From the NCBI RefSeq assembly GCF_013280595.1, contig NZ_JAAATY010000055.1:1-39014 (forward strand): a stretch of DNA of 39,014 nt, in the 5' to 3' direction. Position 1 is the first letter of the stretch. Every line of letters begins with the position of its first letter. Position numbers and translations under genes: made by a program. Source of the stretch: Kibdelosporangium persicum (GTDB taxonomy: Bacteria; Actinomycetota; Actinomycetes; Mycobacteriales; Pseudonocardiaceae). Below the pieces are notes generated by a model. The model ran no database searches. It was not told the DNA's origin and saw only the letters and a list, made by a program, of their open reading frames with translations. Positions 3,567 to 36,246 of the stretch are shown here, one piece after another.

Positions 3567-3616
3567 TCAGCTCCCACCGACAGTTTCGGCTCAGTGCGCA
3601 GTCACCGAACCTCGGG

Positions 3617-3745
3617 GTGGACCCCGCCACGGTGGACCCCGCGAACCACCTGTCCGATCGCGCCCGCTACGCCCCGGCGTGGGGTGCGCTGACCCACGAA
3701 TGCGGGCACGCCAAACACACTGCCCTGCCTGTCCGGAATGGCTGA
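3617..3745 (+). pseudogene. Remnant with HExxH-like metalloprotease motif
   Basis: A 42-codon open stretch whose codon use looks coding: it starts VDPATVDPANHLSDRARY and continues to ALTHECGHAKHT before a stop. HECGH fits the HExxH zinc-binding signature. A following frame (EWLTLSAAFADEVPSI) may continue the same gene after a frameshift. No ribosome site or full domain is present, so this is at most a fragment of a zinc metallopeptidase-like gene. It occupies the 270-base gap between the PNPOx gene and the transporter operon. Confidence 0.25.
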
Positions 3746-3835
3746 CCCTGTCCGCCGCCTTCGCCGACGAGGTTCCGAGCATCGCCGACCGCGACGACAG
3801 CCGGGGCGTTTCACCGGTGATCCACATGGCCGCGC

Positions 3836-5718: not shown

Positions 5719-5729
5719 GTGGTCGACTC

Positions 5730-7046: not shown

Positions 7047-7099
7047 TGACAACTCCTTTGGTTGGCTGACGTCCGGCATTGGTGCCGTATCGCGGCGGA

Positions 7100-8620: not shown

Positions 8621-8660
8621 GTCGCCTTCCGGTGTGGACGGTGTCTGCGCCGCGCTTGAA

Positions 8661-8677
8661 CTGCGAAAGTTTCGTAG
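8661..8677. promoter_or_regulatory. LacI-type operator in the GH51/LacI divergent region
   Basis: CTGCGAAAGTTTCGTAG is a near-perfect palindrome: CGAAA and TTTCG arms around a central G, with outer CT/AG also matching. From memory, CGAAA(N)TTTCG motifs occur upstream of actinomycete xylanase and arabinose-polymer genes regulated by LacI-family repressors. It overlaps a -10-like TAAACT (minus strand, 8681-8676) for the GH51 operon. A second half-site, CTCGAAAG on the minus strand, lies at about 8689-8696. The divergent LacI gene begins 150 bases to the right. Confidence 0.6.
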
Positions 8678-8825
8678 TTTATCGTTACACTTTCGAGCGA
8701 GAAGAGTCGCGACTGGACACCCCCGCCGTCAAGCCGGACACTGCGCATCGTCGCCATTTTGTGACTGATCGTCGCCACACACCGACGCCCAGGTCCCCGC
8801 ACCCCGAGCTGAGAGAGTGACCGTT

Positions 8826-16581: not shown

Positions 16582-17028
16582 GCGGCGAGTATGCCGAGCG
16601 TCGGGACACTGTTCCTCCCGAAGACCCGGACACTGCCCTTTTCTCCCCGCACCGTTGACCTTTCGGTCGGCGAGAGTCGCTTCGGCAGGCCGACATCGCC
16701 TCGGCGGCGGAGCCATCGTGCCGGACCACGAAGGTCCACCGAATGCCCCGCCGCCAAGCGGCCACCACCGTCCACAATCACCAGTGCGACCGGTGCGGAC
16801 ACACTCGCACCACACTCGACCCCACACACACGTCGGGATCGGGCTTGACGAGAGGGATGCTCCCGCGGAGGACCATCCACGCCCAGCCCTTCTCGTCCGC
16901 GGCGAAGGGTGGCCGTCGCGCCGCACCGACAAGACTGGTTACCCCCTCGATCCATGGTGACTGTGACTGGTAAGCCTGTACGCGCCGAGAGCAGGTCAGC
17001 AAGCCATCGGCGCGTGAGGCCACCTCCG
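16582..17028. other. Intergenic stretch without a supported gene
   Basis: About 450 bases between the glycosyltransferase start and a transposase remnant. Two short frames were inspected: one on plus with a CDRCGH zinc-knuckle-like string near 16780, and one on minus (16778-17038) containing GWAWMVLRGSIPLVKPD. Either could be a decayed gene piece, but neither has a ribosome site or full domain. The glycosyltransferase promoter should lie near 16600-16680; no clear boxes were found. Confidence 0.5.
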
Positions 17029-17043
17029 GCATGATCACGGCTC

Positions 17044-17583
17044 GTGCTCACTCGCTTCACCTACCTCGCCGTCACACACGCCTTCACCGCACTGCGGCTA
17101 CTGCCGAGGACCAACCGCGAGAACGACATCGAAATCCTCGCCTTACGCCACCAACTCACCATTCTGCAACGGCATGGCAGCCGAGAACCCGACCTGGGGC
17201 TACCGGCGCATCCACGGCGAACTCGCCCTTCACGGCATCACGACCGTCCCCGTCCCCTCGACAGTGTGGAAATCCTCAAGACCGAGGGTATTGCCCCAAC
17301 CCCACACCGGACGACCGTCACGTGGGCTGACGTCCTGCGCTCCCAGGCCGAAGCGATCCTGGCGATAAACTTCATCCAGACCGTCACCCTTACCGGAACG
17401 CGACAGTACATCCTCGCCGCGATCCACCACGCCAGCAGGCAGGCATGCATCCTCGACGCCACCGCACCCCACCCATACCTGGATGACGCAGGCCGTCCGC
17501 AACTTGCTCATAGACCTCGAGAACGGCGGAAGCGCCGCGCGGGTCAGGTTCCTCATCCGCGACTGCGACCTGATCCAGCAAGA
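17044..17583 (+). mobile_element. Transposase remnant, copy A (rve/DDE type, IS3/IS481-like)
   Basis: The frame opens GTG as MLTRFTYLAVTHAFTALRLL followed by [14 protein letters not shown], the conserved N-terminus of an actinobacterial single-ORF rve transposase. It then jumps directly to [14 protein letters not shown] in another frame, so roughly 95 codons are missing internally. The later part (NFIQTVTLTGTRQYILAAIHHASRQ) is the start of the catalytic domain, after which the copy stops at DCDLIQQ. The 5' leader GGCATGATCACGGCTCGTGCT-like block just before the GTG is shared with copy C. It is inactive. Confidence 0.8.
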
Positions 17584-17584
17584 G

Positions 17585-17632
17585 CCTCGTGAGTGGTTGC
17601 CGGTGTTGGACCGCCGACAACCACTCACGGGG
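17585..17632. repeat. Dispersed hairpin element, copy 2; possible terminator of the protease gene
   Basis: CCTCGTGAGTGGTTG at 17585-17599 pairs with CAACCACTCACGGGG at 17618-17632 with a single G-T type mismatch. The loop contains CGGTGTT as in copy 1 at 10701-10750. Arm substitutions (GTGTTT versus GTGGTT) are compensated on both sides, so the stem is conserved although the sequence is not. It sits 17 bases beyond the stop codon of the minus-strand protease gene and could end its transcript. Confidence 0.8.
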
Positions 17633-22178: not shown

Positions 22179-22388
22179 GTGATCTTGGGAAGGATGGTTC
22201 TGGCGATGGCCGGTGCCTTCGCCGTGGCCTGGCCGGTCCTGCTGGCCACCCCGGCCATGGCGGCCCCCGCCCAGACCAGAGCACCGCCGGACCGGCTACC
22301 CTGCGATCTTCCTCGGCAGATCGGCATAGATGACGTCCGGTCCCACGAGGGCACCGGCAGTGGCCTCACCACTTTCGTGTTGCCATGA
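22179..22388 (+). pseudogene. Truncated secreted protein, start of a Calx-beta-like domain
   Basis: GTG at 22179 has GGGGAG 6 bases upstream. The first 28 residues are a Sec signal peptide (MILGRMVLAMAGAFAVAWPV onward, cleavage after ATPAMA). The mature part continues to IGIDDVRSHEGTGSGLTTFV, which resembles the opening strand pair of a Calx-beta domain (IxxDDVxxxEGxxGxTxxxF). The frame then runs into transposase copy B and stops two codons later. The signal, ribosome site and divergent SARP repeats are intact, so this was probably an expressed exported protein cut off by a transposition-linked rearrangement. Confidence 0.6.
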
Positions 22389-22963
22389 ACTTCATCGAGA
22401 CCATCACCCTGACCGACGCACGCCAGTACATCCTCGCCGCCATCCATCACGCTGGCCGGCGCGTGCGCATACTCGGCACCACCGCGCACCCCGCACACGC
22501 CTGGGTGACACAGGCCGTCCGCAACCTCCTTATGGATCTCGAAGACGCCGCAACCCAGACGCAGGTCAGATTCCTCATCCGCGACCACGGCGGCAAATAC
22601 CCCGCGCTGATCTACAAGATCCCCAGCAGCGCCGGGATCGCGACGGTACTGGCCGGTGTCCGGATACCCCGCATGAACGCGATCACGGTACCTGGGTGAA
22701 AACGCTCCGCACTGAACTGCTGGACCGCACGCTGATCTGGCACCAGACCCACCTCCGGCACGCACTTCGCGAGCACGAGCGGCACTACAACCTGCACCGA
22801 ACTCGCCGATCACTCGCCGCCGCATCACCCCTGCGAGCCCTGCCTGAGGCAATTGAACCCGACCAGATGGAGCACCTCGCGATACATCGCCAGGACCGTC
22901 TCGGCGGCGTTATTCGCGAGTACCGACATGCTGCATGATCAGCGCGGACGTGGTTTTCGGCAC
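22385..22963 (+). mobile_element. Transposase remnant, copy B (3' half with right terminal repeat)
   Basis: Only the catalytic half remains: NFIETITLTDARQYILAAIH, then VRFLIRDHGGKYPALIYK and RIPRMNAI, followed by a frameshift near 22685 and continuation as LRTELLDRTLIWHQTHLRHAL to the terminal DRLGGVIREYRHAA. The right end reads, on the minus strand, GTGCCGAAAACCACGTCC, matching the terminal inverted repeats of copies C and D. The 5' half is absent and the left junction lies inside the Calx-beta-like gene, so the copy is inactive. Confidence 0.85.
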
Positions 22964-23040: not shown

Positions 23041-23880
23041 TCAGGAACTCGACTGAGCAGCCAGTGCGAGGACGGTCCGCGCCTGTTCGAGCATTGCCAC
23101 GTCCAGGAACGTGCCGTCCGCGAGGGCGATCGCGCCGACGCCGGCCGTCATCGCGTTGTCCAGGCGTGCCACCACTTCCCGTGCGCGTTCGACCTCTTGG
23201 GCCGTCGGCAGGAACGCGGCTCGGATCGTCTCCAGCTGCGCTGGGTGGATCGCGGTGCGGCCGCGGAAACCGAGCGCGCGTCCGGCCCGGCAGGACGCCG
23301 CGAGGCCGGCCAGGTCCTGCACGTTGGGGTAGGCGGACATCGCGGGCGGTGGCAGGCGTGCCGCGCGGGCCGCGACGACGATCCGGCTGCGTGCCCAGCT
23401 CAGCCCGGCGTCGTCGGCCACTCCCAGGTCCGAGCGCAAGTCCGCCTCGCCGAGGGCCAGCGACGCGACGCCTGGCGCGGCCGTGGCGATCTCCAGCGCC
23501 CGCTCGACACCTATCGCTGACTCGATCAGCGGGTGCAATGCCCGCCCAGGCAACGCGGTCGCGAGCGCACGGATCTCCTCGGGCGACTCGACTTTGGGAA
23601 TCCTGGCTCCCACCGGGAGGGGCAGGCCTGCGAGCGCGGCGATGTCGTCCTCGTGCCACGGCGTGCTCGGGTGGTTGACCCGCACCTGGATCCGGCGCGA
23701 CGCCGACGCCTGCGCGAGCACGCGCACGGCGTTAGCACGCGCTTCGTCCTTGTGGAACGGGGCAACAGCGTCCTCCAGATCCACGAGCACGACATCCGCT
23801 GTCGACGCAAGCGCTTTCGCGATCCGGTCCGGCCGATCGGCGGGCACATACAACAGAGTCAGCGCAGGCGGTTCGGTCAT
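23041..23880 (-). CDS. HpcH/HpaI-CitE family lyase (CoA-ester lyase-like)
   Basis: A 279-residue TIM-barrel lyase of the CitE family. Members cleave malyl-CoA, citramalyl-CoA or similar 3-hydroxyacyl-CoA esters with Mg2+. Motifs seen: LYVPADRPDRIAKAL at 10-24, VVLVDLEDAVAP at 30-41, Arg67 in QVRVN, metal ligands Glu120 in IESAIGVERA and Asp147 in GEADLRSDLG. The ATG overlaps the preceding CoA-transferase stop by 4 bases (ATGA), so the two are translated together; a CoA transferase making the ester and a lyase splitting it form a sensible pair. It is the last gene of the operon. The exact substrate is not shown by sequence. Confidence 0.93.
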   Translation of the reverse strand: MTEPPALTLLYVPADRPDRIAKALASTADVVLVDLEDAVAPFHKDEARANAVRVLAQASASRRIQVRVNHPSTPWHEDDIAALAGLPLPVGARIPKVESPEEIRALATALPGRALHPLIESAIGVERALEIATAAPGVASLALGEADLRSDLGVADDAGLSWARSRIVVAARAARLPPPAMSAYPNVQDLAGLAASCRAGRALGFRGRTAIHPAQLETIRAAFLPTAQEVERAREVVARLDNAMTAGVGAIALADGTFLDVAMLEQARTVLALAAQSSS

Positions 23881-25085
23881 ATCGCCCCCTCGGCCCGGAG
23901 TCGCGCCACGCGCTCCGGGCCGAACCCGAGCTCGCCGAGGACCGCGTCGGTGTCGGCGCCGTGCGGCCGTCCGGTGAACGCGATCACGCCTGCATCGTCC
24001 GACAGCCGGAAGAACGGGCTCTGCACGAGTGTCGGCCCGAGTTCCGGGTCCTCGACGGGGTGGATCGTGCCGAGCGCCTGGAACTGCGGGTCGGCGACGA
24101 TGTCCGAGGCGTCGTAGATCGGCGCGACGGCCGCCTGTGCCTCCTCGAACGCGGCGACCACCTCGTCGCGGGTGCGCTGGGCGATCCACCCGCCCACGGC
24201 GTCGTCAAGTTCGTCCGCGTGCTGGGCCCGGGCGGCTCCGCTCGCGAACCAGGGCTGGCCGGCCAAGTCCGGTCTGCCGACCAGCCGGACGACCCGCTCG
24301 GCCACCGACTGGGCCGAAGTGGACACTGCCACCCAATGGCCGTCCCGGGTGCGGTAGGTGTTGCGCGGTGCGTTGTTGGCCGACCGGTTGCCGGTGCGCG
24401 GCTGCACCGTGCCCAGCTGATCCCATCGGGTGATCTGCGGGCCGAGCATCGCGAGGATGGGCTCGACGATCGCGGTGTCGACCACCTGGCCGCGCCCGGA
24501 CCGCTCGCGCGCGGCGAGCGCGACCATGATCGCGTAGGCGGTGGCCAGCGACGCGATGCCGTCCGCCAGCCCGAACGGGGGAAGGGTGGGCGGTCCGTCC
24601 GGCTCCCCCGTCATCGCCGCGAACCCGCTCATCGCCTCGGCGAGGGTGCCGAAACCGGGCCGGGACCGGTACGGCCCGACCTGCCCGAATCCCGTGACAC
24701 GGGCGAGCACGAGCCGCGGGTTGCGCGCCGACAGCTCGTCGTAGCCCAGTCCCCACCGCTCAAGGGTGCCGGGCCGGAAGTTCTCGATGACGACATCCGC
24801 CTGCGAGGCGAGCGCGAGGAACACCTCGCGACCGCCAGGCTGACCGAGATTCGCCGTGATGGTGCGCTTGTTCCGGCCAAGCGTCTTCCACCACAGGTTG
24901 ACACCGTCCTTGGCGGCGCCGTGGGTGCGGGACGGGTCGGGCTTCTGGGGGTGCTCGACCTTGACGACGTCAGCGCCCATGTCGCCGAGGTGCATCGCTG
25001 CCATCGGACCGGCGAAGAGCGTGGCCGCGTCGACAACCCGGAGACCCGCCAGGGCACCGTCCGCGGGATTACGGGACACCGTCAC
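23877..25085 (-). CDS. CaiB/BaiF family (class III) CoA transferase
   Basis: A 402-residue class III CoA transferase, which moves CoA between carboxylic acids through an aspartyl anhydride. The family start GLRVVDAATLFAGPMAAMHL is present, and Asp175 in FGLADGIAS occupies the place of the catalytic Asp of formyl-CoA transferase. RSGRGQVVDTAIVEP follows as usual. The GTG start (VTVSRNPADG) overlaps the preceding stop as GTGA; a start further upstream would lie deep in the previous gene. Paired with the CitE-like lyase, it probably activates an organic acid released by upstream operon enzymes. Confidence 0.94.
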   Translation of the reverse strand: MTVSRNPADGALAGLRVVDAATLFAGPMAAMHLGDMGADVVKVEHPQKPDPSRTHGAAKDGVNLWWKTLGRNKRTITANLGQPGGREVFLALASQADVVIENFRPGTLERWGLGYDELSARNPRLVLARVTGFGQVGPYRSRPGFGTLAEAMSGFAAMTGEPDGPPTLPPFGLADGIASLATAYAIMVALAARERSGRGQVVDTAIVEPILAMLGPQITRWDQLGTVQPRTGNRSANNAPRNTYRTRDGHWVAVSTSAQSVAERVVRLVGRPDLAGQPWFASGAARAQHADELDDAVGGWIAQRTRDEVVAAFEEAQAAVAPIYDASDIVADPQFQALGTIHPVEDPELGPTLVQSPFFRLSDDAGVIAFTGRPHGADTDAVLGELGFGPERVARLRAEGAI

Positions 25086-27028
25086 CGCGGCACCTCCCAG
25101 CAGCACCGGAAGCCGACGGACGCACTGCGCGCCAAGCCCAGACCTGGCAGGAGCAGCTTGACCGCGTAGCCGGGGTCCTGTCGTCCGCCCTCGACGTACC
25201 AGTCCGAGCCCTCGGCCCGGAAATCACTACCGCCCTTCAGCATCACGAAACGCGTCCGTCCGTCACTGTGCTCGCTCTCCGTCCAGTTCCACACCGCGGG
25301 CTCGCCGCGGCGCAGCCGCCCAATCTCGGCCGCGAGTTGCCATTCGTCCTCGGTGGGCAACCGGCCGCCCCGCCATGCGCAGTACGCGCGGGCGTCGTCA
25401 AGGTCCACAAAGGTCACCGGTTCGTGGCCGGTCCGCTGGTCCCAGTGCATGAGAAAGCGATGCGCCTGCGCAGGCCGGTACCCCGTTGCGTCGAGGAAAG
25501 CCGCGAACTCGGCGTTGGTGACCTCGCTGGCGCCGACCGCCACGGCGGTGGCGAGTTCGCCTGCCCGCTGCAGCGTGCGCGCGTCATGCAACCTCGGCGG
25601 GAGAGGCTTCCACTCGTCGACGTAGGGCGCTCCCTGGTACATCCCGGTTTCCCTTGCCCTGTAGCGCATCGTGAGCACGTAAGGTCCTGAAGGGACGATC
25701 ACGGTGTCTTGATGGGGTTCGCCTACAGTGGGTTCCGGCTTTCGCCGAGTCGCGAGCCGGTGTGGGAAGCGGGCGTCCGGGTCGTGCGGCAGGTCGGGAA
25801 GGCCCCGCAGCCAGTCCGGTTCGGGGGTGCCCGGCGAGATCCGCAGCAACGCGGCGATCCCGCGCGCCGGTACTCCCCCGCCGAGGAGGTTGACGACCGT
25901 TCCCGTGGTCGGCGGTACCAACGGACCGTTGTAGTCCTCCGCACCGCGATTGACGACCGTCCACAGTGTCAAGCCGGCCAACTCCCACCGCGAGGCGTAG
26001 ACCCCGGCGGACTCAGCCTCAGGGGCCAGTTCGGCCAACGGCGTCCACTCGCCGCGCAGCAGCAGGTCAACGGCAGCGCGTTGAACGGTCACCATGCGGC
26101 GAACGGTCGCGGCGTCTCTCGGCGACCAACCGACCCAGACGCCGAAGACGACTTCCCAGACCATGACCCCCACGCCGTTCAGCCAGGCGGAGTGCAGTTC
26201 CTCGGAGTGGTCCCGGTGCCAGCGGCGGACGTGGTGCTGCATGTGCCGCCGCTCGTACCAGTGGGCGCGCAGAACCCCCGGCACCGGCGAGTCGGCGAAG
26301 AACTGGGCCCACGAGCAAGAGTGGTCCTCGACGCGCTCGACCGGCAACTTGGACTCGCCTTCGAGCACGATCCCGGGCCGGGCCGCCTCCAGCCGTTCGA
26401 CGAACTCGGGCTCGGCCTTCTTGAGGGTATCGAGGAAAACGCCGTCCGCACCGAGATCCGCCACGAGCGACGCCAGCTCGGTGAGGTCGTCACCGCCGCG
26501 CCGCGTACCGACGTCCCACGGGTTGTAGTCGACGAACACACGGACGCCCGCGTCGTGCAGGTCGTCGACGAGGTCCCTCAGGCCCGGGACATCCCGGTAG
26601 AAGTCCCACTGGTTGCGGTCGTCGAGCCCGATGACGGGGTAGGCGTGCCACAGCACGACCGCGTCGAGACCTCCGAAGCGCTCGTGTGCGTCGGCGAGGA
26701 AACGCTTGGGGGTGAACTGGTGTTGCTCGAACGAGTAGAGCAGCTCGTCCCACAGCCATACCTGGGCGACGATGTGGCAGCGCGACGCCCAGGCCGCACC
26801 CGGACGGTCGTAGGCCGACCCGGTGTACCCGTGGCGGGATTTCGCGTCCGCACGCCACTGCCGCAGCCGGTCGCGCCACGCGGGCCGGTCGGCCGGATCC
26901 GGCGGTCCGGCGAAGATCTTGGCCTCGTCCAGCGCGACCAGCTGCTCGGCGGTCAGCGGCCCGCTCAGCGGCACCCCGGTGGGCCGGTCGATCGGACGCG
27001 GAACCAGCGGGTCGAACGTGTAGGTCAC
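25082..27028 (-). CDS. TIM-barrel glycosidase-like protein fused to an FGE/SUMF1-like domain
   Basis: A 648-residue cytoplasmic fusion protein without signal peptide. Residues of about 75-330 look like a glycoside-hydrolase TIM barrel (DAVVLWHAYPVIGLDDRNQW, AGVRVFVDYNPWDVGTRRG, LGADGVFLDTLKK, GIVLEGES), with Asp and Glu at strand ends as candidate catalytic residues. Residues of about 490-648 resemble the formylglycine-generating enzyme/SUMF1 fold (ASEVTNAEFAAFLDATGY, ARAYCAWRGGRLPTEDEWQL, WNWTES, VMLKGGSDF, SVGFRC). The copper-binding Cys pair of true FGE is not seen, so this part probably binds rather than catalyses. The ATG overlaps the ribokinase stop by 4 bases. A role in substrate processing is inferred. 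Confidence 0.8.
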   Translation of the reverse strand: MTYTFDPLVPRPIDRPTGVPLSGPLTAEQLVALDEAKIFAGPPDPADRPAWRDRLRQWRADAKSRHGYTGSAYDRPGAAWASRCHIVAQVWLWDELLYSFEQHQFTPKRFLADAHERFGGLDAVVLWHAYPVIGLDDRNQWDFYRDVPGLRDLVDDLHDAGVRVFVDYNPWDVGTRRGGDDLTELASLVADLGADGVFLDTLKKAEPEFVERLEAARPGIVLEGESKLPVERVEDHSCSWAQFFADSPVPGVLRAHWYERRHMQHHVRRWHRDHSEELHSAWLNGVGVMVWEVVFGVWVGWSPRDAATVRRMVTVQRAAVDLLLRGEWTPLAELAPEAESAGVYASRWELAGLTLWTVVNRGAEDYNGPLVPPTTGTVVNLLGGGVPARGIAALLRISPGTPEPDWLRGLPDLPHDPDARFPHRLATRRKPEPTVGEPHQDTVIVPSGPYVLTMRYRARETGMYQGAPYVDEWKPLPPRLHDARTLQRAGELATAVAVGASEVTNAEFAAFLDATGYRPAQAHRFLMHWDQRTGHEPVTFVDLDDARAYCAWRGGRLPTEDEWQLAAEIGRLRRGEPAVWNWTESEHSDGRTRFVMLKGGSDFRAEGSDWYVEGGRQDPGYAVKLLLPGLGLARSASVGFRCCWEVPR

Positions 27029-27948
27029 CGTGCATCCCCTCCCGAATCGAGCGCGGCAAGCGCCGCGACTTCCGCGGCGGTGGGGACGGCGGACTGAGCA
27101 CCGGGCCGGGTGACCGCCAATGCACCGGCCGCGCAGGCGAGCCTCGCCGCCTCGGCGAGTTCGAGCCCGCGCGCCAGTGCTGCGGCGAGCACGCCGCAGA
27201 ACGTGTCACCCGCACCCGTGGTGTCGACGGCATCGACGGAGAAACCCGGGATTCGCAACGGATCGCGCCCCTTCTCGGCAACAACGCAACCCCCACGACC
27301 AAGCGTGATGACGACGGCGGAGACACGCTCCAGCAGCATCGCCGCCAGCTCCGCTGCGGAGCCCGCGGCCTGCGTCAGTTCGACTGCCTCGTGCTCGTTG
27401 ACGATGAGCAGGTCGATCGCGTCCCAGACATCGTCTGGCAGAGCCTGCGCCGGTGCGGCGTTGAGTGCCATGAGGACACCCGGCCCCCGTGCGGCCGAGG
27501 CCCCGCGGACCACGTCGAGCGGGATCTCCAACTGGGCGAGCACGACGTCCGCGGCCGCGATCCGCGCAGTCCGCGCGGTGTCGAGTTCCAGACGGGCGTT
27601 GGCACCGGGAGCGACGACGATGGTGTTCTCCCCATCCGGGGAGACTGTGATCAACGCCGTGCCTGTCGGGGCGTCGGCTCTGCCTGTGAGGTCCGTGCGG
27701 ACGCCCGCGCGTTCCAGCGAGGTGAGGAGGAGATCGGCGGAGTCGTCCGCACCGAGCGCGCCCACGAAAGTCGTCTCCGCGCCGCCTGCGAGCGCGGCGG
27801 CCACGGCCTGGTTGGCGCCCTTGCCGCCGGGGTTGCGGCGCAGGTCGCCGCCGAGAATCGTCTCCCCGCCGCGCGGCGGCCGGGGAACGTCGACTACGAG
27901 GTCGACGTTCGCCGAGCCGACGACCACGACCCGGCCGCGCGTGGTCAC
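27025..27948 (-). CDS. rbsK: Ribokinase, PfkB family
   Basis: A 307-residue sugar kinase with strong ribokinase character: VVGSANVDLVVDVPRPPRGG at the start, RNPGGKGANQAVAAALAGG (PfkB signature 1, residues 39-57) and DTTGAGDTFCGVLAAALARG (signature 2) with catalytic base Asp248. It phosphorylates a ribose-type sugar with ATP, feeding ribose 5-phosphate to the pentose pathway. The GTG start shares GTGA with the stop of the upstream ADP-ribosylglycohydrolase-family gene, and its own stop overlaps the next ATG. This tight coupling ties ribose release to its phosphorylation. A related pentose or deoxyribose substrate is possible. Confidence 0.92.
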   Translation of the reverse strand: MTTRGRVVVVGSANVDLVVDVPRPPRGGETILGGDLRRNPGGKGANQAVAAALAGGAETTFVGALGADDSADLLLTSLERAGVRTDLTGRADAPTGTALITVSPDGENTIVVAPGANARLELDTARTARIAAADVVLAQLEIPLDVVRGASAARGPGVLMALNAAPAQALPDDVWDAIDLLIVNEHEAVELTQAAGSAAELAAMLLERVSAVVITLGRGGCVVAEKGRDPLRIPGFSVDAVDTTGAGDTFCGVLAAALARGLELAEAARLACAAGALAVTRPGAQSAVPTAAEVAALAALDSGGDAR

Positions 27949-29285
27949 GAGTCACCCCGTTTCGACGCGAGCGCGGCGGTGCGCGCCGCGAGATCAACTA
28001 TGCGCTGCTCCCCGCCGGGCAGCGATGTCGTTATCCGGCCGTCGAGCGGTTCGGTCCACTGTGCACCGATTCCGTCGGCTCCGCGCAGCGCACCCACGAC
28101 GCCTCCGACCGTGGCCGCCGCCGAATCGGTGTCCCATCCGGCCGTCACCGCAATGGACACACTCGGTCCGAATTCCCCACCGCCCTTCGCGAGCGCGTAC
28201 GCGATGATCGAAGCGTTGTTGAGCACGTGCACCCAGTGCAGGTCGCCGTATTCCGCGTGGAGGCGATCAAGACCGTCGCGCACACCGCCTTCGGTGGCCT
28301 TCCGTCCGAAGTGGACGGCTTGCGCCAGCCGACTGCCGGGCGGCAGGACCGCCTCGGCCGCGTCGAGGACCTCTTCGACCGTGTCGCAGACCATCGCGGC
28401 CGAAGCAAGCGCCGCGGCCCACATCGCGCCGTACACGCCGTTGCGCGTGTGGCTGAGCCGGGCATCGGTCCAGGCAAGGCGCGCTGCGGCGCGCACGTCA
28501 CCCGGCGAGACCCATCCGAACACGTCGGCGCGGATCAACGCGCCTATCCACTCGCGGAACGGGTTGTGGTGCTTCGCGGTCTCGGGTATGGGACGAGCGT
28601 CGAGCACATTGCGGTACGCGGTGCGTTCCGCGGTGAAGACCCGGCCCGCAGGCAGGTTGTCCAACCACAACTGGGCGACGTCCTCGGTGGTGAAGTCACG
28701 GCCGCGCGTCTCGAGCAGCGTGAGCGCGAGCATCGGGTAGTTGAGGTCGTCGTCCTCCGGCATCCCGTCGATGTTCTCCTCCAGCGAGGTCCCGGCGGAC
28801 CGCCGGTTCCACGGCCAGCGCGCGGCCACCTCGCCGGGAAGGCCGGCCGCGGTGAAGTACCGGTCGAGCGGCCAGCGTCCCGTCGCGTGCAGGATCTCCT
28901 CGATGCCCGCACGCGGAATCTTCTCGACCGGCTTGCCGAGCAGGCACCCGGCCGCGCGGCCGATCCACGCTCCGAGCGTGCGGTCATCGCCGGGTGAGGG
29001 CAGGTCCGGAGCCTGCGGCAGCAGGGCGAGGATGGCTTCCCAGTCGTCGGGCTCCTCGGCGGCGTGCGGTACGGGAAGCGCGTCGAGTTCATCGAGCAGT
29101 TCCCGCGCGAGCGCCCGCAGCGCGGGCGTCGCAGGTGCCGGCCCTGCACCGCTCACCGCGGGTGTCGGGTCGCCGCCAGCCGCCACCCAGCGAGCCCGCA
29201 CGATGGCGATGTCCTTGCCCTCCGCGGCGGACTGGACGAACTCGTGCGCGAGCAGGTCCTCGGGCTGTGCCCACGTGAGCCTCAT
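27945..29285 (-). CDS. ADP-ribosylglycohydrolase family protein, with N-terminal extension
   Basis: A 446-residue member of the ADP-ribosylglycohydrolase (DraG/ARH) fold, an all-helical enzyme with two Mg ions that hydrolyses bonds to the anomeric carbon of ribose. Residues of about 1-98 are an extra N-terminal segment (MRLTWAQPEDLLAHEFVQSA onward). The core has LGAWIGRAAGCLLGKPVEKI at 104-123, the acidic cluster EDDD at 177-180 in MPEDDDLNYPML, and WDTDSAAATVGG near 384-395, all consistent with metal binding. The ATG overlaps the stop of a second family member upstream (ATGA). The true substrate is unknown; a protein ADP-ribose link is unlikely given the sugar-import operon. Confidence 0.9.
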   Translation of the reverse strand: MRLTWAQPEDLLAHEFVQSAAEGKDIAIVRARWVAAGGDPTPAVSGAGPAPATPALRALARELLDELDALPVPHAAEEPDDWEAILALLPQAPDLPSPGDDRTLGAWIGRAAGCLLGKPVEKIPRAGIEEILHATGRWPLDRYFTAAGLPGEVAARWPWNRRSAGTSLEENIDGMPEDDDLNYPMLALTLLETRGRDFTTEDVAQLWLDNLPAGRVFTAERTAYRNVLDARPIPETAKHHNPFREWIGALIRADVFGWVSPGDVRAAARLAWTDARLSHTRNGVYGAMWAAALASAAMVCDTVEEVLDAAEAVLPPGSRLAQAVHFGRKATEGGVRDGLDRLHAEYGDLHWVHVLNNASIIAYALAKGGGEFGPSVSIAVTAGWDTDSAAATVGGVVGALRGADGIGAQWTEPLDGRITTSLPGGEQRIVDLAARTAALASKRGDS

Positions 29286-30454
29286 GCCCCCACCACCGCG
29301 TCGTCGAGCGAGTCGAGGGTGTGCAGCCGCGCGAGCGCCCGTTCGCGGTCGGCCCGCAGGATGTCCGCAGCCGCCGAGGCCATGAGGAGCCCGGTCTCGC
29401 GGATGTCCATCCGGCTCGCCTCGCTGATGGCGTCGAGCCACTCGGCGGGCACGACAGCGGACCCGCCGAGGCCAGCGCAGACCGCTCCCGCCATGGCCGC
29501 GACCGAGTCCGCGTCCCGGCCGTAGTTGACCGCGGCGAGGACCGCACCGCGGTAGTCGCCCCGGTGGCCCAGCACGAGCCCGAGCGCGGCGGGCAGTTCC
29601 TCGATCGACTTCGTCCGCGACGGCCGCCGGGAGTCGAGCGACATCTGCCGGTAGTGCGGCCCGACCGAGTCGAACGGGGCCACTGTGTCCCGGACGAGAC
29701 GGGCCAGAGCCCGCTCCTCCTCGTCCGTTCGCGGCGGCGTGGTCCAGCCGTCGAAGGCGTCGACCACGGCACGGATCGCCGCCGCAGTCCCGTCGTGCGC
29801 CACGTCGAGAGCGGCCGTGACCACGTCGTCGAGCCCAGCGCCGGGCGCGACCGCAGCGGCGACCATCGCCGCGAGGACGCCGGCCGCCTCCCGCCCGTAG
29901 CTGGACTGGTGGGCGCCGGTGAGGTCGATAGCCTCGGCGTAGGCACCGCGCGGGTCGCCGGCGTTGACGATCCCGACCGGTGCGACGTACATCGCCGCTC
30001 CGCAGTTGACGACGTTGCCGACACCGGCCTCGCGTGGATCGACGTGTCCATAGTGGAGCCGGGCGACGATCCACTTCTCCGCGAGGAACACGCGCTGGAG
30101 CAACAGCGCGGTCGACTCCAGTTCGGGGACCCACCGGGGCTCGCCGATCATGAGCGGCACCAGGTCCTCGGCCATGGCGTACGCGTCGAGGTGCGCGCGG
30201 CGTTTCGCGTACACCTCGACCAGCGCACGTGTCATGAGCGTGTCGTCGGTGACGTGCCCGTCGCCCTTGTGATACGGCGCGATGGGCCGGGCGTCCCGCC
30301 AGTTCGGGTACCACGGCCCGACGATGCCGGTCACCCGGCCGCCATGCCGCTCCTCGATCTGCTCGGGTGTCCATCCCTCGGTGGCGCCGCCGAGCGCGTC
30401 CCCCACGGCCGCTCCGGTGATCACAGCCACCGCTCGGTCTTCCAGCCAGGTCAC
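29282..30454 (-). CDS. ADP-ribosylglycohydrolase family protein
   Basis: A 390-residue DraG/ARH-type hydrolase, quite different in sequence from the neighbouring family member. Metal-site motifs are clear: TGAAVGDALGGATEG at 13-27, GHVTDDTLMTRAL with Thr69-Asp70-Asp71, and GRDADSVAAMAGA with Asp314, Asp316 and Ser317. The GTG start (VTWLEDRAVAV) has GGGGAG 8 bases before it. It begins 50 bases after the binding-protein stop and starts the run of six genes linked by 4-base overlaps. Two such hydrolases with a ribokinase recall E. coli yegU-yegV, an ADP-ribosylglycohydrolase-family gene next to a PfkB kinase gene. Confidence 0.92.
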   Translation of the reverse strand: MTWLEDRAVAVITGAAVGDALGGATEGWTPEQIEERHGGRVTGIVGPWYPNWRDARPIAPYHKGDGHVTDDTLMTRALVEVYAKRRAHLDAYAMAEDLVPLMIGEPRWVPELESTALLLQRVFLAEKWIVARLHYGHVDPREAGVGNVVNCGAAMYVAPVGIVNAGDPRGAYAEAIDLTGAHQSSYGREAAGVLAAMVAAAVAPGAGLDDVVTAALDVAHDGTAAAIRAVVDAFDGWTTPPRTDEEERALARLVRDTVAPFDSVGPHYRQMSLDSRRPSRTKSIEELPAALGLVLGHRGDYRGAVLAAVNYGRDADSVAAMAGAVCAGLGGSAVVPAEWLDAISEASRMDIRETGLLMASAAADILRADRERALARLHTLDSLDDAVVGA

Positions 30455-30504
30455 CGGCTCCGCTCCCCTTCCAGTTCCGTGCGGTCCACAGTGGATCGTC
30501 ACTA

Positions 30505-31782
30505 CTACCTCGAGATGGTCTGCCAGCCGTCCTGCAGCGCACGGGCGAGACCGTCGGCGTCGAGTTCCCTGCCGAGGAACCGCTGGAACGCCGGGGTCGC
30601 GACGGTGTCCTTCCACTGCGCGTACTTGTCGACGAACAGGTACGGCGCGGAGGTCAGGTGCTTGCCGGAGGACAGGATGGCGTTCCAGCCGTTCTTCGAC
30701 CCCAGCTTGGCGGTCAGCGCCTCGCGCGCGGAGGTGGTCGGCGGGATCAGCGCGTCGGCCTCGTTGAGTGCGGCCAGGTTCTCCGTGCTGGTGAAGAAGT
30801 CGATGAACTCGGCGGCTTCCTTGACGTGCGCGGAGTCCTTGTTCACCGACAGCGTCTGCGGGTTGGCGGCCTGCGCGGGGCCTGCCGGGCCGGCGAGCGG
30901 GGGCAGCACGACCCAGTCGAAGCCCGCGGGCGCGTCCTTGGCGATGTTGGCGGCCTGGAACGAACCCTGGACGGTCATCGCCACCTGGCCCGCGTAGAAG
31001 GACGCGAGCACCTTGCTGCCGGACTGGGTCAGGGTGACCGGGAGGACCGACTTGTCCTGCTGGGCCATCGCGTCGACCAGCTTGGGCAGCGCCAGCTCAC
31101 CGGTGCCGACCACGGCCTTCGCGTCCCGGCCGGTGCCCTCGAAGTACTTCCCGCCGAAGCCCGGCGCGAGCGCCACGAACGCCGCCGTCGGGCTCGACAG
31201 CCCCCAGCCGAGACCGTAGGCGCCGTCCCTTGTGGTCACCTTGGCGATCTCGCGCAGCTGGTCCCAGGTCATCGTCTCGCCCGACGGAATCGTCACACCC
31301 GCCTTCTGCAGCAGCGCCCGGTTGGCGAAGACCACATAGGACTGCAGCTCGGTCGGGTAGGCGATCACCTGGCCGCCGACGGTCACCGAGTCCATGACGC
31401 CCTTCGGGATGTCCGCGCGCTTCTGCTCGGACACGTACGGGGTCAGGTCGGCCAGGTACCCGTCGGCCGCGAACGGCACGACCCCGGCTGCTTCGTAGTG
31501 GATGATGTCGGGCGCGCTGTTGGCGTTGAACTGGGTGATCAGCTTGTCGTAGACGCCGTCCCAGCCCGCCTGCACGACCTTGACCTGCACGTCGGGGTGG
31601 GACTTGTTCCAGTCGTCGACGATCTTGGTCGTCGCCGCGATGGCCGCAGGCTGGTCGGACAAGGACTGGAACGTGAGGGTCACCGGACCGCCGGCGGAGT
31701 CACCGCTGTCCCCGCCGCAGGCGGTGAGCAGCAGGCTCGAGACGGCCAGGAGCGCGGCGGTCACCACGCGTCGAGACTTCAT
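30505..31782 (-). CDS. Extracellular sugar-binding lipoprotein of CUT1 ABC importer
   Basis: A 425-residue solute-binding lipoprotein. ATG at 31782 has GAAAGG 7 bases upstream. Residues 1-21 form the signal with lipobox LTAC and lipidated Cys22, followed by a Gly/Asp/Ser linker. The binding fold shows DWNKSHPDVQVKVVQAGWDG, NSAPDIIHYEAAGVVPFA, AYPTELQSYVVFANRALL and the C-terminal FQRFLGRELDADGLARALQD. It delivers its ligand to the two permeases encoded just upstream. No sequence feature reveals the ligand; the downstream ribokinase and glycohydrolases suggest a glycoside or riboside. Confidence 0.94.
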   Translation of the reverse strand: MKSRRVVTAALLAVSSLLLTACGGDSGDSAGGPVTLTFQSLSDQPAAIAATTKIVDDWNKSHPDVQVKVVQAGWDGVYDKLITQFNANSAPDIIHYEAAGVVPFAADGYLADLTPYVSEQKRADIPKGVMDSVTVGGQVIAYPTELQSYVVFANRALLQKAGVTIPSGETMTWDQLREIAKVTTRDGAYGLGWGLSSPTAAFVALAPGFGGKYFEGTGRDAKAVVGTGELALPKLVDAMAQQDKSVLPVTLTQSGSKVLASFYAGQVAMTVQGSFQAANIAKDAPAGFDWVVLPPLAGPAGPAQAANPQTLSVNKDSAHVKEAAEFIDFFTSTENLAALNEADALIPPTTSAREALTAKLGSKNGWNAILSSGKHLTSAPYLFVDKYAQWKDTVATPAFQRFLGRELDADGLARALQDGWQTISR

Positions 31783-31813
31783 TGGTCGACCTTTCGTGTT
31801 GGAGGGCACGGTT

Positions 31814-32641
31814 TCAGCCCTTCACCGCGCCGGCCATCAGCCCGCTGGTGAGCCTGCGCCGCAGGAGGGTGAAGAAGACGATGCTGGGGACGGCGGCGAG
31901 CACGGCGCCCGCGGCCAGCGGCCCGAGCGCGACCTTGCCCTCACCGCCGATGAACATCTTGAGTGTGATGGGCAGGGTGTAGTTCTCCGGCGACTGCAGC
32001 AGCACGAGCGCGAAGAAGAACTCGTTCCACGACGACACGAAGCTGAACATCGCCGTCGCGGCGATCCCGGGCGCCAGCAACGGGAACACGATCGTGCGCA
32101 GCACCGTGACCCGGCTCGCGCCGTCCACTGCCCCGGCTTCCTCGAGTTCGACGGGGATCGCGGAGACGTAGCCCTGCAGCATCCACAGGGCGAACGGCAG
32201 CATGTAGGTCACGTGCACGAGCGTGAGCCCGGCCAGGCTGTCGGCCAGCCCGATCGTGCGCAGGATGAGGAACAGCGGCAGGATGACCAGCACGACCGGG
32301 AAGACCTGGCTCACCAGGATCCAGCCGACCCCGGCCGCGCGCACCTTGCCCCGCAGCCGGGCGAGCACGTAGGACGCGGGCAGGGCGATCACGACCACCA
32401 CGGCCGTGGCCACCAGCGCCACGACGAGGCTGTTCCATGCGGAGTGGACGAGCCCCTGCCGGGACAGCGCCTCGACGTAGTTCTCCCAGTGCCACTGCTG
32501 CGGCAGCAGGCTGACGGTCAGGGAGTTGAGCTCCCGTGAGGACTTCACCGAGGCGGAGATCAGCCACAGCAACGGGAACCCGAGGAACAGGATGTACAGC
32601 AGCAGGGCCGCGTACTGGGCAGGACGCGCGAGGGCACGCAT
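31814..32641 (-). CDS. Carbohydrate ABC transporter permease (MalG-like)
   Basis: A 275-residue CUT1 permease with six predicted spans, starting MRALARPAQYAALLLYILFL. The EAA loop EEAGAVDGASRVTVLRTIVF lies near residues 180-199, for contact with the ATPase. It ends LMAGAVKG, like other MalG proteins. The ATG sits 5 bases after the stop of the MalF-like gene, so the two are co-translated. No ATPase gene is present in the operon. Confidence 0.95.
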   Translation of the reverse strand: MRALARPAQYAALLLYILFLGFPLLWLISASVKSSRELNSLTVSLLPQQWHWENYVEALSRQGLVHSAWNSLVVALVATAVVVVIALPASYVLARLRGKVRAAGVGWILVSQVFPVVLVILPLFLILRTIGLADSLAGLTLVHVTYMLPFALWMLQGYVSAIPVELEEAGAVDGASRVTVLRTIVFPLLAPGIAATAMFSFVSSWNEFFFALVLLQSPENYTLPITLKMFIGGEGKVALGPLAAGAVLAAVPSIVFFTLLRRRLTSGLMAGAVKG

Positions 32642-32646
32642 GGTCG

Positions 32647-33594
32647 TCAGCCCCTCCGCTCGGTGCGGTCGTCGCGGAACTGCGACCGCAGGTAGATGGC
32701 CAGGAGGAGCACGATCACGATCACCAGCACGACGCCCATGGCGGCCGCGTAGCCGATGTTGCGGTTCTTGAACGCCTCGAGGTAGGTGAAGAGGATCGGG
32801 ACCATGGTCCGGCCGCCCGGACCGCCTTCGGTCAGCACGTAGACCAGGGAGAACGAGTTGAAGTTCCAGATGAAGTTCAGCGACGTGATCGACGTGACGA
32901 TCGGCCGCAGGCTGGGCCAGGTCACCGCGGTGAACCGGCGCCACGCGCCCGCGCCGTCCATCGACGCCGCCTCATGCAGCTCGGCCGGGATCTGCTGCAA
33001 CCCGGCGAGCAGCGTGACGGTCGTCTGTGGCATCCCGACCCAGACCCCGACGAGGATCACGGCGGGCAGCGCGGTGGCGAAGTCGCCGAGCCAGTTGGTG
33101 TCATCCGGCAGGCCCAGGCTGCCGAGGAACGCGTTGAGCGGCCCGCCGTTGGCGGAGTAGATCATCTGCCACATGATCGCCACGACCACCGGCGGCATCG
33201 CCCACGGCACGAGGGCGAGCACCCGCGTCAGCCCCTGGAGCCGCAGGCCCGAGTTGAGCAGCAGCGCGAGCCCCATCGAGGCGGCGAGTTGCAGCACCGT
33301 CACGCCGACCGTCCAGATCAGACCGATCCGCAGCGAGTCCCAGAAGAACGAGTTGCCCGCCAGCCGCCCGAAGTTGTCGAGGCCGACGAACTCGTAGTCC
33401 GGGTTGCGCACCAGCCGGGCGTCGGTGAACGCCAGAGCCAGCGCGACCACCAGCGGTGCGACGCTGAGCACCAGGATGGGGATCAGCGACGGCATCACCA
33501 GCGCGATCGCCTCGCGCCGCCGGGCGCGCACCAGCGTCCCGCGCCGCCGCTGTGGCGCCGCCTTGGTCTTCTCGGCCAGCGTTGGCGTCGTCAT
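32647..33594 (-). CDS. Carbohydrate ABC transporter permease (MalF-like)
   Basis: A 315-residue CUT1 permease. A basic cytoplasmic tail (AAPQRRRGTLVRARRREAIA) precedes six spans; the EAA loop is HEAASMDGAGAWRRFTAVTW near residues 210-229. Its ATG overlaps the stop of the LacI repressor gene by 4 bases (ATGA), so repressor and transporter are made from the same message. This arrangement gives tight negative feedback: the regulator is produced together with the importer it controls. Confidence 0.95.
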   Translation of the reverse strand: MTTPTLAEKTKAAPQRRRGTLVRARRREAIALVMPSLIPILVLSVAPLVVALALAFTDARLVRNPDYEFVGLDNFGRLAGNSFFWDSLRIGLIWTVGVTVLQLAASMGLALLLNSGLRLQGLTRVLALVPWAMPPVVVAIMWQMIYSANGGPLNAFLGSLGLPDDTNWLGDFATALPAVILVGVWVGMPQTTVTLLAGLQQIPAELHEAASMDGAGAWRRFTAVTWPSLRPIVTSITSLNFIWNFNSFSLVYVLTEGGPGGRTMVPILFTYLEAFKNRNIGYAAAMGVVLVIVIVLLLAIYLRSQFRDDRTERRG

Positions 33595-34619
33595 CGTGCG
33601 CCCCCGTCCGTGGATTTCCGCACGATCAGAGCCGGGCCGACGGCGACTTGCTGCGCCTGTTGCCCCGGGTCCTCGGTGAGGCGGAGCATCAGCTGTGCGG
33701 CGGCGCGCCCGCGCTCGGTGGAGCCGAGCGACACGCTGGTCAGGCTCGGGTGGAACACCCGTCCGATCTCGATGTCGTCCATGCCGGTCACGGCGACGTC
33801 CTGCGGCACCGACAGTCCCAGCTCCCGTGCGGCGTGAATTACCCCGATGGCAAGGAGGTCGTTGGCCGCCACGACGGCGTCGAGCTGTCCGGCGCCATCC
33901 GGGGCACGGGCGAAGAGCCTGCGCGCGGCCTCGAGGCCGGCCGCCACCGTGAAGTCGCCGGCGATCTCCACCTCGATCCGCTCGGCGGCGAAGCCCTCGG
34001 CCCGCACCGCCGCGTCGAACCCGCGCTGACGGGCCTCACCGGGAGTGGTGTCCAGCGGACCGTTGAGGAAGCCGACGCGGCGCCGGCCGATCGCGTGCAG
34101 GTGGCGCACCGCTGCTCCGATGCCGCCCGCGGAATCCGTGGAGACCGAGCTGATGCCGTGGTCGCCCAGTGCCCGGCCGATCACGACCACGGGCACCGCC
34201 GCCTGCTGGATCTCCTGGATGAGCCGGTCGTCGGTTCGCAACGGGCTGATGACCATGCCGTCGACGAAGCCGCTGTTCAGACTCCGCACCAAGTCGGCCG
34301 TCGAGCCGGTGGTGTCGCCAGTGGTCATCACCACGACGCGGTAGCCGTGCGGGGCGAGCACGCCATGGATTGCCCGCATCATCTCGACGTACACGGGGTT
34401 GCCGATGTCGGCGACCGCGAACGCGATCTGGAAGGTCTTCTTCATCCGCAGCGAGCGACCGACCGCATCCGGGCTGTAGCCCAGCTCGGCAGCGGCCGCG
34501 CGCACACGCTCGACCATGGCCTTGCTTGCCCCGGTGCCGTGCAGAGCCCGCGAGGTCGACGCCAGCGATACCCCGGCTCGCTCGGCGACCTGCTGGAGCG
34601 TGGCTCGTGTTGACGTCAT
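33591..34619 (-). CDS. LacI-family transcriptional repressor, first gene of the ten-gene operon
   Basis: A 342-residue LacI repressor. The start MTSTRATLQQVAERAGVS has GGAG 5 bases upstream; longer frames run back through the operators and are not credible. The helix-turn-helix (LQQVAERAGVSLASTSRALH) and hinge (PDAVGRSLRMKKTFQIAFAV) are followed by the sugar-sensing domain (NPVYVEMMRAIHGVLAPHGY, AVVAANDLLAIGVIHAAREL, MDDIEIGRVFHPSLTSVSLG). The first and last operon genes are separated by 11.5 kb with no gap over 50 bases. Two matching operators lie just upstream at 34637-34683. Confidence 0.96.
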   Translation of the reverse strand: MTSTRATLQQVAERAGVSLASTSRALHGTGASKAMVERVRAAAAELGYSPDAVGRSLRMKKTFQIAFAVADIGNPVYVEMMRAIHGVLAPHGYRVVVMTTGDTTGSTADLVRSLNSGFVDGMVISPLRTDDRLIQEIQQAAVPVVVIGRALGDHGISSVSTDSAGGIGAAVRHLHAIGRRRVGFLNGPLDTTPGEARQRGFDAAVRAEGFAAERIEVEIAGDFTVAAGLEAARRLFARAPDGAGQLDAVVAANDLLAIGVIHAARELGLSVPQDVAVTGMDDIEIGRVFHPSLTSVSLGSTERGRAAAQLMLRLTEDPGQQAQQVAVGPALIVRKSTDGGAR

Positions 34620-34636: not shown

Positions 34637-34683
34637 TTGGAAACGATTCCAAGACCAGTCCGTTCGGCTGGAATCGTTTCCAA
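34637..34683. promoter_or_regulatory. Double LacI operator, two inverted copies 31 bases apart
   Basis: TTGGAAACGATTCCAA at 34637-34652 and TGGAATCGTTTCCAA at 34669-34683 are the same 15-base site in opposite orientation. Each is itself a LacI-type palindrome with a central CG. Centre-to-centre distance is 31 bases, about three helical turns, so both lie on one face of the DNA. They sit 18-64 bases before the LacI start codon and should cover the operon promoter, giving cooperative autorepression. Confidence 0.75.
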
Positions 34684-34862: not shown

Positions 34863-35041
34863 GTGCCGAAAGGTACATCCGTGGAGGTGAACAGGCATCG
34901 AAGCGTCGCCGACGCTGTCCGGCATGATCACGGCTCGTGCTGGTCCGCTTCGCCTATCTCGCTGTCACACACACGTTCGCCGCGCTGCGGCTGTTGCCGA
35001 AGACCGACCGCGAGAAGGACATCAAGATCCTGACCCTGTGG
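34863..35041 (+). mobile_element. Transposase remnant, copy C (5' end, interrupted by copy D)
   Basis: The left terminal repeat begins GTGCCGAAAGGTACATCC at 34863. The transposase frame opens at GTG 34937 as MLVRFAYLAVTHTFAALRLL and runs to KDIKILTL, where it is cut at 35041 by the left end of copy D. The matching remainder of copy C is not found after copy D, although copy E at 36606-36664 could be its displaced right end. Confidence 0.8.
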
Positions 35042-36246
35042 GTGCCGACAACTACATCCATGGGACCTGACCTGCAGATCTCCGAAGGCCCAGAGATAGC
35101 GCCACTGGGCGGGCACACCAAGATGCTGCGTCGTGCTGCTGCGACTCCCCTACCTTGCACCCACTCGCGTATTCGCGTTCCTCCGGTTACCGCCGACGAA
35201 CAGCACCGACAGGGACATCGAGATCCTGGCCCTGCGCCACCAGCACACAGTCCTGCAGCGTCAAATCGGCAGCCACGTCTCACCCCGCCCAACCGCGCGT
35301 TCCTCGCCGCTCTCCTTCACCGCATCCCCAGACCAACACTGCGCAAGCTCCACCTGATCGTCTCCCCCGACACGATCTTGCGCTGGCACCTAATCTGCTC
35401 CGCGGCCGTCACACGCGAGCATCCCGCTCGACGCGACCAGGCCGACCACGCACCATCCGCAGCATCCAGGCCCTCGTCCTGCGACTCGCCCGCGAAAACC
35501 CGAACTGGGGCTACCGACGCATCCACGGCGAACTCGCCACCCTCGCCATCAAAATCGCTCCCTCCACCGTCTGGGAAATCCTGAAGAACAACGGCGCCGA
35601 ACCGGCGCCTCGCCGCGATCACCTAACCTGGGCCGCCTTCCTACGCAACCAAGCACACGCCATCCTCGCCGCCGACTTCTTCGAAACCCGAACCCTCACG
35701 AACCCGACAGCCATCCTCGCCGTCATGGAGCGCCACCCGCTGCATCCCCATCCTCGGCGCGACCGCGCACCCCACCGCGGCCTGGACCACTCAACTGGCC
35801 AGAAATCTCACGATGGATCTCCAAGACGCCGACGCCACCACAGTGAAGTACCTGATCCGGGATCACGACAACAAATACACCACCACCTCCGACACCGTGC
35901 TCGCTGACAGCGGGATCACGGTCATCACAACCGGTATCCGCGTACCCCGCATGAACGCGATCATGGAACGCTGGATCCGCACCTGCCGAACCGAACTCCT
36001 CGACCGCACCCTCATCCTCCACCAAGCACATCTGCTACATGCACTCCGCGAGTACGAACGCTTCTACAACCAGCATCGACCTCACCACGCGCTACATGCC
36101 GCAGCACCACAACGCGCAAAACCGCAACCCATCCCAGACCCAGCTGTACTCAAGCACCTCGACATCCAACGACAAAGATCGACTCGGCGGCATCCTCCAC
36201 GAGTACCACCACGCCGCTTGACCTGCGTGGACGCTATTGTCGGCAC
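35042..36246 (+). mobile_element. Nearly complete but degenerate insertion sequence, copy D
   Basis: A 1205-base element with terminal inverted repeats: left GTGCCGACAACTACATCC at 35042, right (minus strand from 36246) GTGCCGACAATAGCGTCC. The single transposase gene starts at GTG 35133 ([20 protein letters not shown]) and ends DRLGGILHEYHHAA at 36221. Pieces appear in successive frames: [17 protein letters not shown], then [20 protein letters not shown], then [20 protein letters not shown], then VPRMNAIMERWIRTCRTELL. At least four frameshifts make it inactive. The rve (DDE) catalytic domain occupies the second half. No target-site duplication was found. Confidence 0.88.

Follow-up and report, generated by a model that had tools for sequence, protein, structure and literature searches.

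The window analysed here, a stretch of 39,014 nucleotides from Kibdelosporangium persicum (NCBI RefSeq assembly GCF_013280595.1, contig NZ_JAAATY010000055.1), contains a ten-gene operon on the minus strand, running from position 34619 to position 23041. Its core links two hydrolases of the ADP-ribosylglycohydrolase (ARH) family, ARH1 and ARH2, with the coenzyme A (CoA) transferase CaiB and the C-C lyase CitE, and this core is kept across many actinobacteria. The best reading of the gene set is a catabolic one, although the riboside and the identity of the acid named in the following are what we infer. With a confidence just short of an even chance, we propose a locally repressed operon for the breakdown of a furanoside, probably a riboside, that is taken up by the cell; its acid would be activated with CoA by CaiB and then split by CitE. 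Gene set, gene order, two palindromes ahead of the first gene and the co-conservation of the genes are direct observations and are described first.

Organization of the operon

Searches with Pfam and NCBIfam bear out a preliminary description of this DNA, which had listed the same ten genes in the same order on the minus strand: LacI, two CUT1 permeases, SBP_bac_1, ARH1, ARH2, kinase, a fusion of a glycoside hydrolase (GH)-like part with a formylglycine-generating enzyme (FGE)-like part, CaiB, and CitE. The LacI-family repressor (33591..34619; PF00356 and Peripla_BP_3) was given the start 34619 within an open frame that extends to 34931; several other genes of the operon also have longer open frames, and the starts used are those given here. 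It is followed by a MalF-like and a MalG-like permease of the CUT1 type (32647..33594 and 31814..32641, both PF00528) and by a CUT1 solute-binding protein (30505..31782; PF01547, 143 bits), an apparent lipoprotein according to the lipobox LLLTACGG, which was read by eye. No ATPase is present among the ten genes. The two DraG/ARH-family hydrolases, ARH1 (29282..30502) and ARH2 (27945..29285), reach 161.6 and 156.0 bits against PF03747 (cut-off 26.2), and the ARH2 match begins at residue 105, behind an N-terminal extension of about 100 residues. Then come a ribokinase-type PfkB kinase (27025..27948; top PDB match ribokinase 6znx), the possible fusion of a GH-like barrel with an FGE/EgtB-like domain (25082..27028, 648 amino acids), the family III CoA transferase CaiB (23877..25085; PF02515, CoA_transf_3, 393.2 bits) and the CitE-type C-C lyase (23041..23880; PF03328, HpcH_HpaI, 112 bits).

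The five 4-base overlaps claimed earlier are all in the sequence (ATGA at 29282, GTGA at 27945, 27025 and 25082, ATGA at 23877), and an additional sixth one, ATGA at 33591-33594, joins lacI to the first permease gene. With gene starts in the relatives chosen by script, a spacing of -4 recurs between ARH1 and ARH2 in 63 of 75 cases, between ARH2 and kinase in 53 of 66, between kinase and fusion in 45 of 66, between fusion and CaiB in 66 of 78, and between CaiB and CitE in 63 of 78.

Conservation in actinobacteria

Genome contigs were scanned with a profile from 21 aligned fusion proteins, which confirmed 492 relatives, and the best 80 of these were kept; according to the record titles, all 80 loci are from actinobacterial genera. 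In 65 of the 80, the ten genes are all present, in identical order and on a single strand, a share that is inflated because these loci are the most fusion-like of the 492. Among the other 15 loci, nine lack the kinase only (L082, L105, L120, L122, L124, L131, L136, L139, and L141) and six lack more genes, mostly at contig ends (L088, L100, L102, L103, L127, and L133). Pairwise protein distances over the 65 loci correlate with r of 0.90-0.97 for nine genes and of 0.70-0.79 for ARH1, which would agree with joint inheritance but falls short of proof, as the correlations were computed without an unlinked control gene. A chance assembly of the ten genes is ruled out by this conservation.

Because the 80 loci had been picked by fusion similarity, 394 genomes drawn from across the class were examined in addition, the three draws for fusion, ARH2 and CaiB being taken as the same genomes by their shared handles. 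The fusion occurs in 20 of these genomes (E 1e-30), an ARH2 relative in 74 (1e-10), and a CaiB relative in 100 (1e-110). For the comparison of ARH2 and CaiB, the 59 ARH2 places with at least 50% identity and the 77 best-scoring of the 100 CaiB genomes were considered, one place each, with weaker matches of both excluded. The preliminary description had suggested a gene-neighbourhood analysis as a check of co-occurrence, and this association was indeed found: besides the 65 full operons, an operon-type CaiB lies within 10 kb of ARH2 in 56 of the 59 genomes with an ARH2 orthologue. The three others are G371, G418, and G177, whose ARH2 gene lies close to the end of a contig. Conversely, the comparison script returned 18 CaiB genomes without ARH2, which is an overcount, since G325 and G388 carry a short ARH2 fragment (42-43%) no more than 3 kb from CaiB and G094 has an ARH-type match 7.9 kb away (locus L227). 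All 20 fusion genomes carry ARH2 and CaiB, and at E 1e-30 no fusion is seen in 36 of the 56 ARH2-CaiB genomes. Among the 20, G273 has its fusion relative at a separate place, beside GH3 and GH67 genes, and a fusion-less core on another contig (L206).

A locus from the same genus as the window (L034 in genome G001) contains the fusion in three pieces and three frames, plus parts of the kinase and of CitE, and within 20 kb nothing that matches LacI, the transporter, ARH or CaiB, so that the operon looks decayed there.

Core and add-on modules

In total, 20 neighbourhoods were read around ARH2 relatives and 20 further ones around CaiB relatives. The core of the operon is ARH1-ARH2-(kinase)-CaiB-CitE, and the transporter, the GH/FGE fusion and a downstream esterase are add-ons. 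Five loci read as Streptomyces-like (L190-L194) have the arrangement ARH-c16-ARH1-ARH2-(kinase)-CaiB-CitE, and core, LacI and CUT1 genes are present without the fusion in L195, L199-L203, L205, and L206. The parts are reordered and the kinase is missing in L196, L197 stops at ARH2, and L207-L209 represent more distant ARH2 relatives in which the core is absent. Many loci have two extra ARH-type genes; both match PF03747 in L063 (174 and 98 bits), and the second one seemingly has no last acidic motif.

Downstream of CitE, a PF00756-type esterase gene follows on the same strand within 0.7 kb in 20 of the 74 loci that have at least 1.5 kb of sequence there, and this in several genera; clustering alone gave 19 such loci. 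The copy of L098, the one locus scanned with Pfam, appears to have a signal peptide, and an SBBP repeat follows the esterase in the C-terminal part. Around CaiB relatives, an adjacent same-strand CitE is found in 8 of the 20 loci. L235 has ARH1 and the transporter, L227 the distant ARH-type match mentioned above, and the remaining 18 have no ARH match, among them six with an adjacent CaiB-CitE pair (L217-L220, L226, and L236). As esterase and ARH-less pairs suggest, acid and sugar may be ester-joined or separate substrates. The acid would then not be bound glycosidically but either be esterified to the compound taken up or come from the same source as a substrate in its own right, and the ARH/kinase and CoA halves of the operon would be two modules. 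The neighbours in three of the 18 ARH-less CaiB loci, namely MmgE/PrpD, PF04199, amidohydrolase, acyl-CoA dehydrogenase and a branched-chain-type binding protein, point in this direction, with MmgE/PrpD and PF04199 next to the L217 pair, an amidohydrolase near CaiB in L231, and MmgE/PrpD, PF04199 and an amidohydrolase in L234. The same holds for cassettes of LacI, CUT1, ARH and ribokinase genes without CoA genes on Deinococcus and Mycolicibacterium plasmids. However, such an esterase is absent from 54 of the 74 loci and from the window (best E 0.80), and the conserved 4-base overlaps run from ARH1 through CitE. We regard a non-glycosidic acid as rather unlikely.

On a Phyllobacterium plasmid, from outside the actinobacteria like the Deinococcus ones, a LacI-CUT1-ARH-ARH cassette has no annotated ribokinase. 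These cassettes, and the Sphingopyxis gene row described below, also count in favour of the proposed furanoside pathway. When the plasmid collection was searched for the fusion, just two distant matches were obtained. One record among the plasmids, L216 (NZ_LT559118.1, 11.85 Mb), looks like a whole Nonomuraea chromosome and has the genes from LacI to the kinase with no fusion match.

The kinase and the nature of the sugar

The sequence supports a ribose-type specificity of the operon kinase. The residues N14, D16, G41, G42, K43, N46, E141, and D248, which we take to be the ribose contacts of ribokinases such as RbsK, are at least 97% conserved in 67 rows and aligned with solved ribokinases. 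However, the kinase stays below the cut-off of the ribokinase equivalog TIGR02152 (273.4 versus 299.65 bits), as does the best other ribokinase copy of the window genome (275.2 bits). All four kinase-less genomes that were checked (G440, G318, G308, and G404) own another ribokinase with 291-304 bits, which fits ribose as a product, but as the window genome owns a second ribokinase as well, this argument is weak. All of 14 control genomes match the ribokinase model somewhere, four of them above the cut-off.

A furanose other than ribose, for example apiose or arabinofuranose, has to be considered too, in which case the kinase would act on a different pentose. On a Sphingopyxis plasmid, a ribokinase (50% identity), a fusion relative (31%), an annotated beta-L-arabinofuranosidase and a CoA transferase (30%) stand in a row, so that the arabinofuranosidase occupies the ARH position; furthermore, a relative of the FGE fusion adjoins a GH28 gene in Spirosoma, and the low TIGR02152 score would suit a different sugar as well. 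Set against this are the presumed ribose contacts, the ribokinases as top solved matches of the kinase, and the other ribokinases of the kinase-less genomes, with the reservation just made. A non-ribose furanose is unlikely in our view, and ribose is kept as the probable sugar of the proposed furanoside.

The ARH-family hydrolases and the GH/FGE fusion

Enzymes of the ARH/DraG family have acidic metal-site motifs of the types GDA, TDD and DxD. In ARH1, GD (34-35), TDDT (85-88), R329, D330, D332, and S333 are at least 97% conserved in 73 rows. ARH2 keeps EDDD (177-180) and WDTDS (384-388) but not GDA (78 rows). The predicted model of ARH2, the one of the two hydrolases that was modelled, has the all-helical ARH fold; with a predicted local distance difference test (pLDDT) value of 81.8, it was matched by Foldseek to MJ1187 (1t5j) and to a DraG (3g9d) with TMt of 0.74-0.76, and ARH3 is also among its fold matches.

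Membership in PF03747 and the ARH3/DraG fold would also suit a role in ADP-ribosylation, in which proteins, nucleic acids or small molecules would be freed of ADP-ribose by the ARH proteins, with the CoA genes as passengers. In print, the homologues from Streptomyces are classed in this way: in the available parts of two papers, SCO2028-SCO2030 of S. coelicolor appear as uncharacterised DraG/ARH homologues, to which the later paper adds SCO2031, and they are treated there as ADP-ribosylation hydrolases with no mention of a catabolic role (PMC5087735; PMC9411070). SCO2028-SCO2031 have four consecutive gene numbers and are all ARH-type. In L190 and L193, the Streptomyces-like core lies between trp genes and gltB, as read by eye, and SCO2038 is placed in the S. 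coelicolor trp locus in a third paper (PMC5036795). The Streptomyces-like core would thus correspond to SCO2028-SCO2031, as judged from gene order and numbering alone; SCO2032 and SCO2033 were not mentioned in the literature searched. Unlike the operon of the window, this core has no match to CUT1 transporter, LacI or FGE fusion alongside it. According to a further study, SCO2028 and SCO2030 have no detectable activity on U-alpha-ADPr, and neither have two ARH-like proteins of S. coelicolor that are not encoded in this cluster (PMC13036486). Since those proteins are inactive too and a single type of substrate was used, this is a weak argument against ADP-ribosylation. A further point against it is Tyr172 of ARH1, which replaces the Arg in the CGAAMR stretch of MJ1187 in a segment aligned at only 4.5 bits. 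Since the hydrolases are conserved together with the sugar importer, the single-site operators and the CoA enzymes, we rank ADP-ribosylation low and consider it very unlikely as the function of the operon.

Of the GH/FGE fusion named in the preliminary description, the FGE-like C-terminus is supported by the sole Pfam match of the protein (PF03781, FGE-sulfatase, residues 495-588), whereas the GH half has no Pfam match and is represented by a predicted model with weak fold matches. The model of the 648-residue protein has a pLDDT of 76 with low-TM amylase-like and FGE/EgtB-like matches by Foldseek; for residues 1-400 the amylase matches have TMt of 0.33-0.42, with the barrel partly below pLDDT 50, and no family placement was found for this N-terminal half. 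D200 and E225 are invariant in 21 rows. Formylglycine-generating enzymes use a catalytic cysteine pair. Such an activity of the C-terminus was rejected, as no cysteine is invariant in these rows and only C642 is nearly so. The equivalog cut-offs of EgtB (36.3 versus 360 bits) and SenA (56.9 versus 420 bits) are also missed.

CaiB and CitE

The top solved relatives of CaiB are 4ed9, of unnamed function, and then SUGCT, the succinate-hydroxymethylglutarate CoA-transferase, a family III enzyme like CaiB (2.7e-49); among the named ones are SUGCT, formyl-CoA transferase, and YfdE. D175 of CaiB, presumably the active-site Asp, is at least 97% conserved (79 rows) and aligned with an Asp of SUGCT. The nearest solved relatives of CitE are acyl-CoA lyases, for example 8khl, and its nearest curated model is RipC, the citramalyl-CoA lyase of itaconate degradation; different from the RipC system, there is no hydratase among the ten genes.

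Probable operators upstream of lacI

The palindromes GGAAACGATTCC and GGAATCGTTTCC start 62 and 31 bases ahead of the lacI start. Both the distal (34669..34683) and the proximal one (34637..34652) fit the exact 15-base pattern TTGGAANCGNTTCCA, which, counting exact matches, occurs at only these two places in the 10.35-Mb assembly. This confinement to the operon fits a repressor dedicated to a single operon, and both palindromes can be assumed to be LacI-type operators of such a repressor. In the relatives, GGAANCGNTTCC is found upstream of lacI in 56 of the 74 with enough sequence there, with at least two copies in 48. It was found in 12 of 1600 random stretches, which come from those very loci and could include true sites. 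A further operator pattern, distinct from this one, fits 47 of 75 loci.

The proposed pathway

Substrates, reactions and repression are given here as we infer them. The binding protein and the two permeases would import the furanoside, and, since the operon has no ATPase of its own, a shared ATPase would energise the importer. In the cytoplasm, the GH/FGE fusion and both ARH-family enzymes may cut glycosidic bonds, and the ribokinase would deliver ribose 5-phosphate. The remaining hydroxy acid would receive CoA from CaiB, and CitE would cleave the hydroxyacyl-CoA into acetyl-CoA and a 2-oxo acid. By fit to the nearest CaiB and CitE relatives, the acid may be citramalate- or 3-hydroxy-3-methylglutarate-like. 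The preliminary description had proposed that a ribosylated organic acid is imported and cleaved; co-occurrence of the genes and the ribose-type kinase speak for this, but not for the import of an acid riboside itself. Bacillithiol-type or plain malate conjugates, aceric acid, methanopterin and further substrates were considered and dropped, with no evidence for any of them.

Several points weigh against this pathway. The operon has no known ligand, product or phenotype, and we know of no natural riboside of such an acid. Besides the kinase, CaiB and CitE also score under the cut-offs of their nearest models, CaiB far below the SUGCT equivalog NF052585 (230 versus 750 bits) and CitE far below RipC (164.4 versus 375 bits). 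The CUT1 transporter has no match beside the core in 5 of 5 Streptomyces-like loci, L198 and L204 have ARH1-ARH2 with no adjoining CaiB-CitE, and the reverse is seen in the ARH-less CaiB-CitE pairs (6 of 20). Moreover, the distribution is patchy near home: in a set of 60 relatives, only G002, G005, and G027 of the 59 other genomes have a full-length fusion, and G001 has the pieces described above.

Among the literature matches listed for the gene set or its chemistry, the only relevant item is yegTUV of E. coli, and no description of the pathway was found, in agreement with the preliminary description, which knew of none with this gene set. According to the published report, yegTUV combines an ARH gene (YegU), a PfkB kinase (YegV) and a transporter (YegT) under one single-target repressor; its function is unclear and linked to glycogen and ADP-glucose (PMC10819704). 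It differs from the operon of the window in having three genes, one ARH, a nucleoside symporter instead of an ATP-binding cassette importer, and no CoA enzymes (PMC10819704). Elsewhere in the window genome (G000:C1:148734-150514), an ARH gene (207.8 bits) adjoins a same-strand PfkB gene (110 bits, TIGR02152) as a yegU-yegV-like pair.

More generally, it can be suggested, with somewhat less than even confidence, that these actinobacterial ARH-family enzymes are furanosidases of a catabolic pathway coupled to CoA-dependent hydroxy-acid cleavage. If so, clustered ARH-family proteins that are now put down as ADP-ribosylation hydrolases from homology would have a metabolic role, and a function would be at hand for a gene set whose core occurs in 56 of the 394 genomes of the class draw, about one seventh. 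If, in addition, SCO2028-SCO2031 are the Streptomyces core, four of the eight listed DraG/ARH homologues of S. coelicolor would not serve to erase ADP-ribosylation, and the "lively ADP-ribosylation metabolism" deduced from the number of homologues would in large part be carbon catabolism. It would also point to a new natural furanoside as food of soil actinobacteria.

Other features of the window

No tRNA (ARAGORN) or Rfam RNA match was obtained anywhere in the window. The operon is flanked by diverged short repeats (17025-17563, 22382-22585, and 34918-35562; 63-84% over 70-117 bases), the translations of which resemble a transposase remnant by eye, with no Pfam match in 17044-17592 or 34937-35584. 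A second sugar operon lies at 3591-9869, with a LacI gene on the plus strand (8817-9869) and, on the minus strand, a binding protein (5730-7079), a protein with an alpha-L-arabinofuranosidase C-terminal domain (7100-8620) and more open frames beyond.

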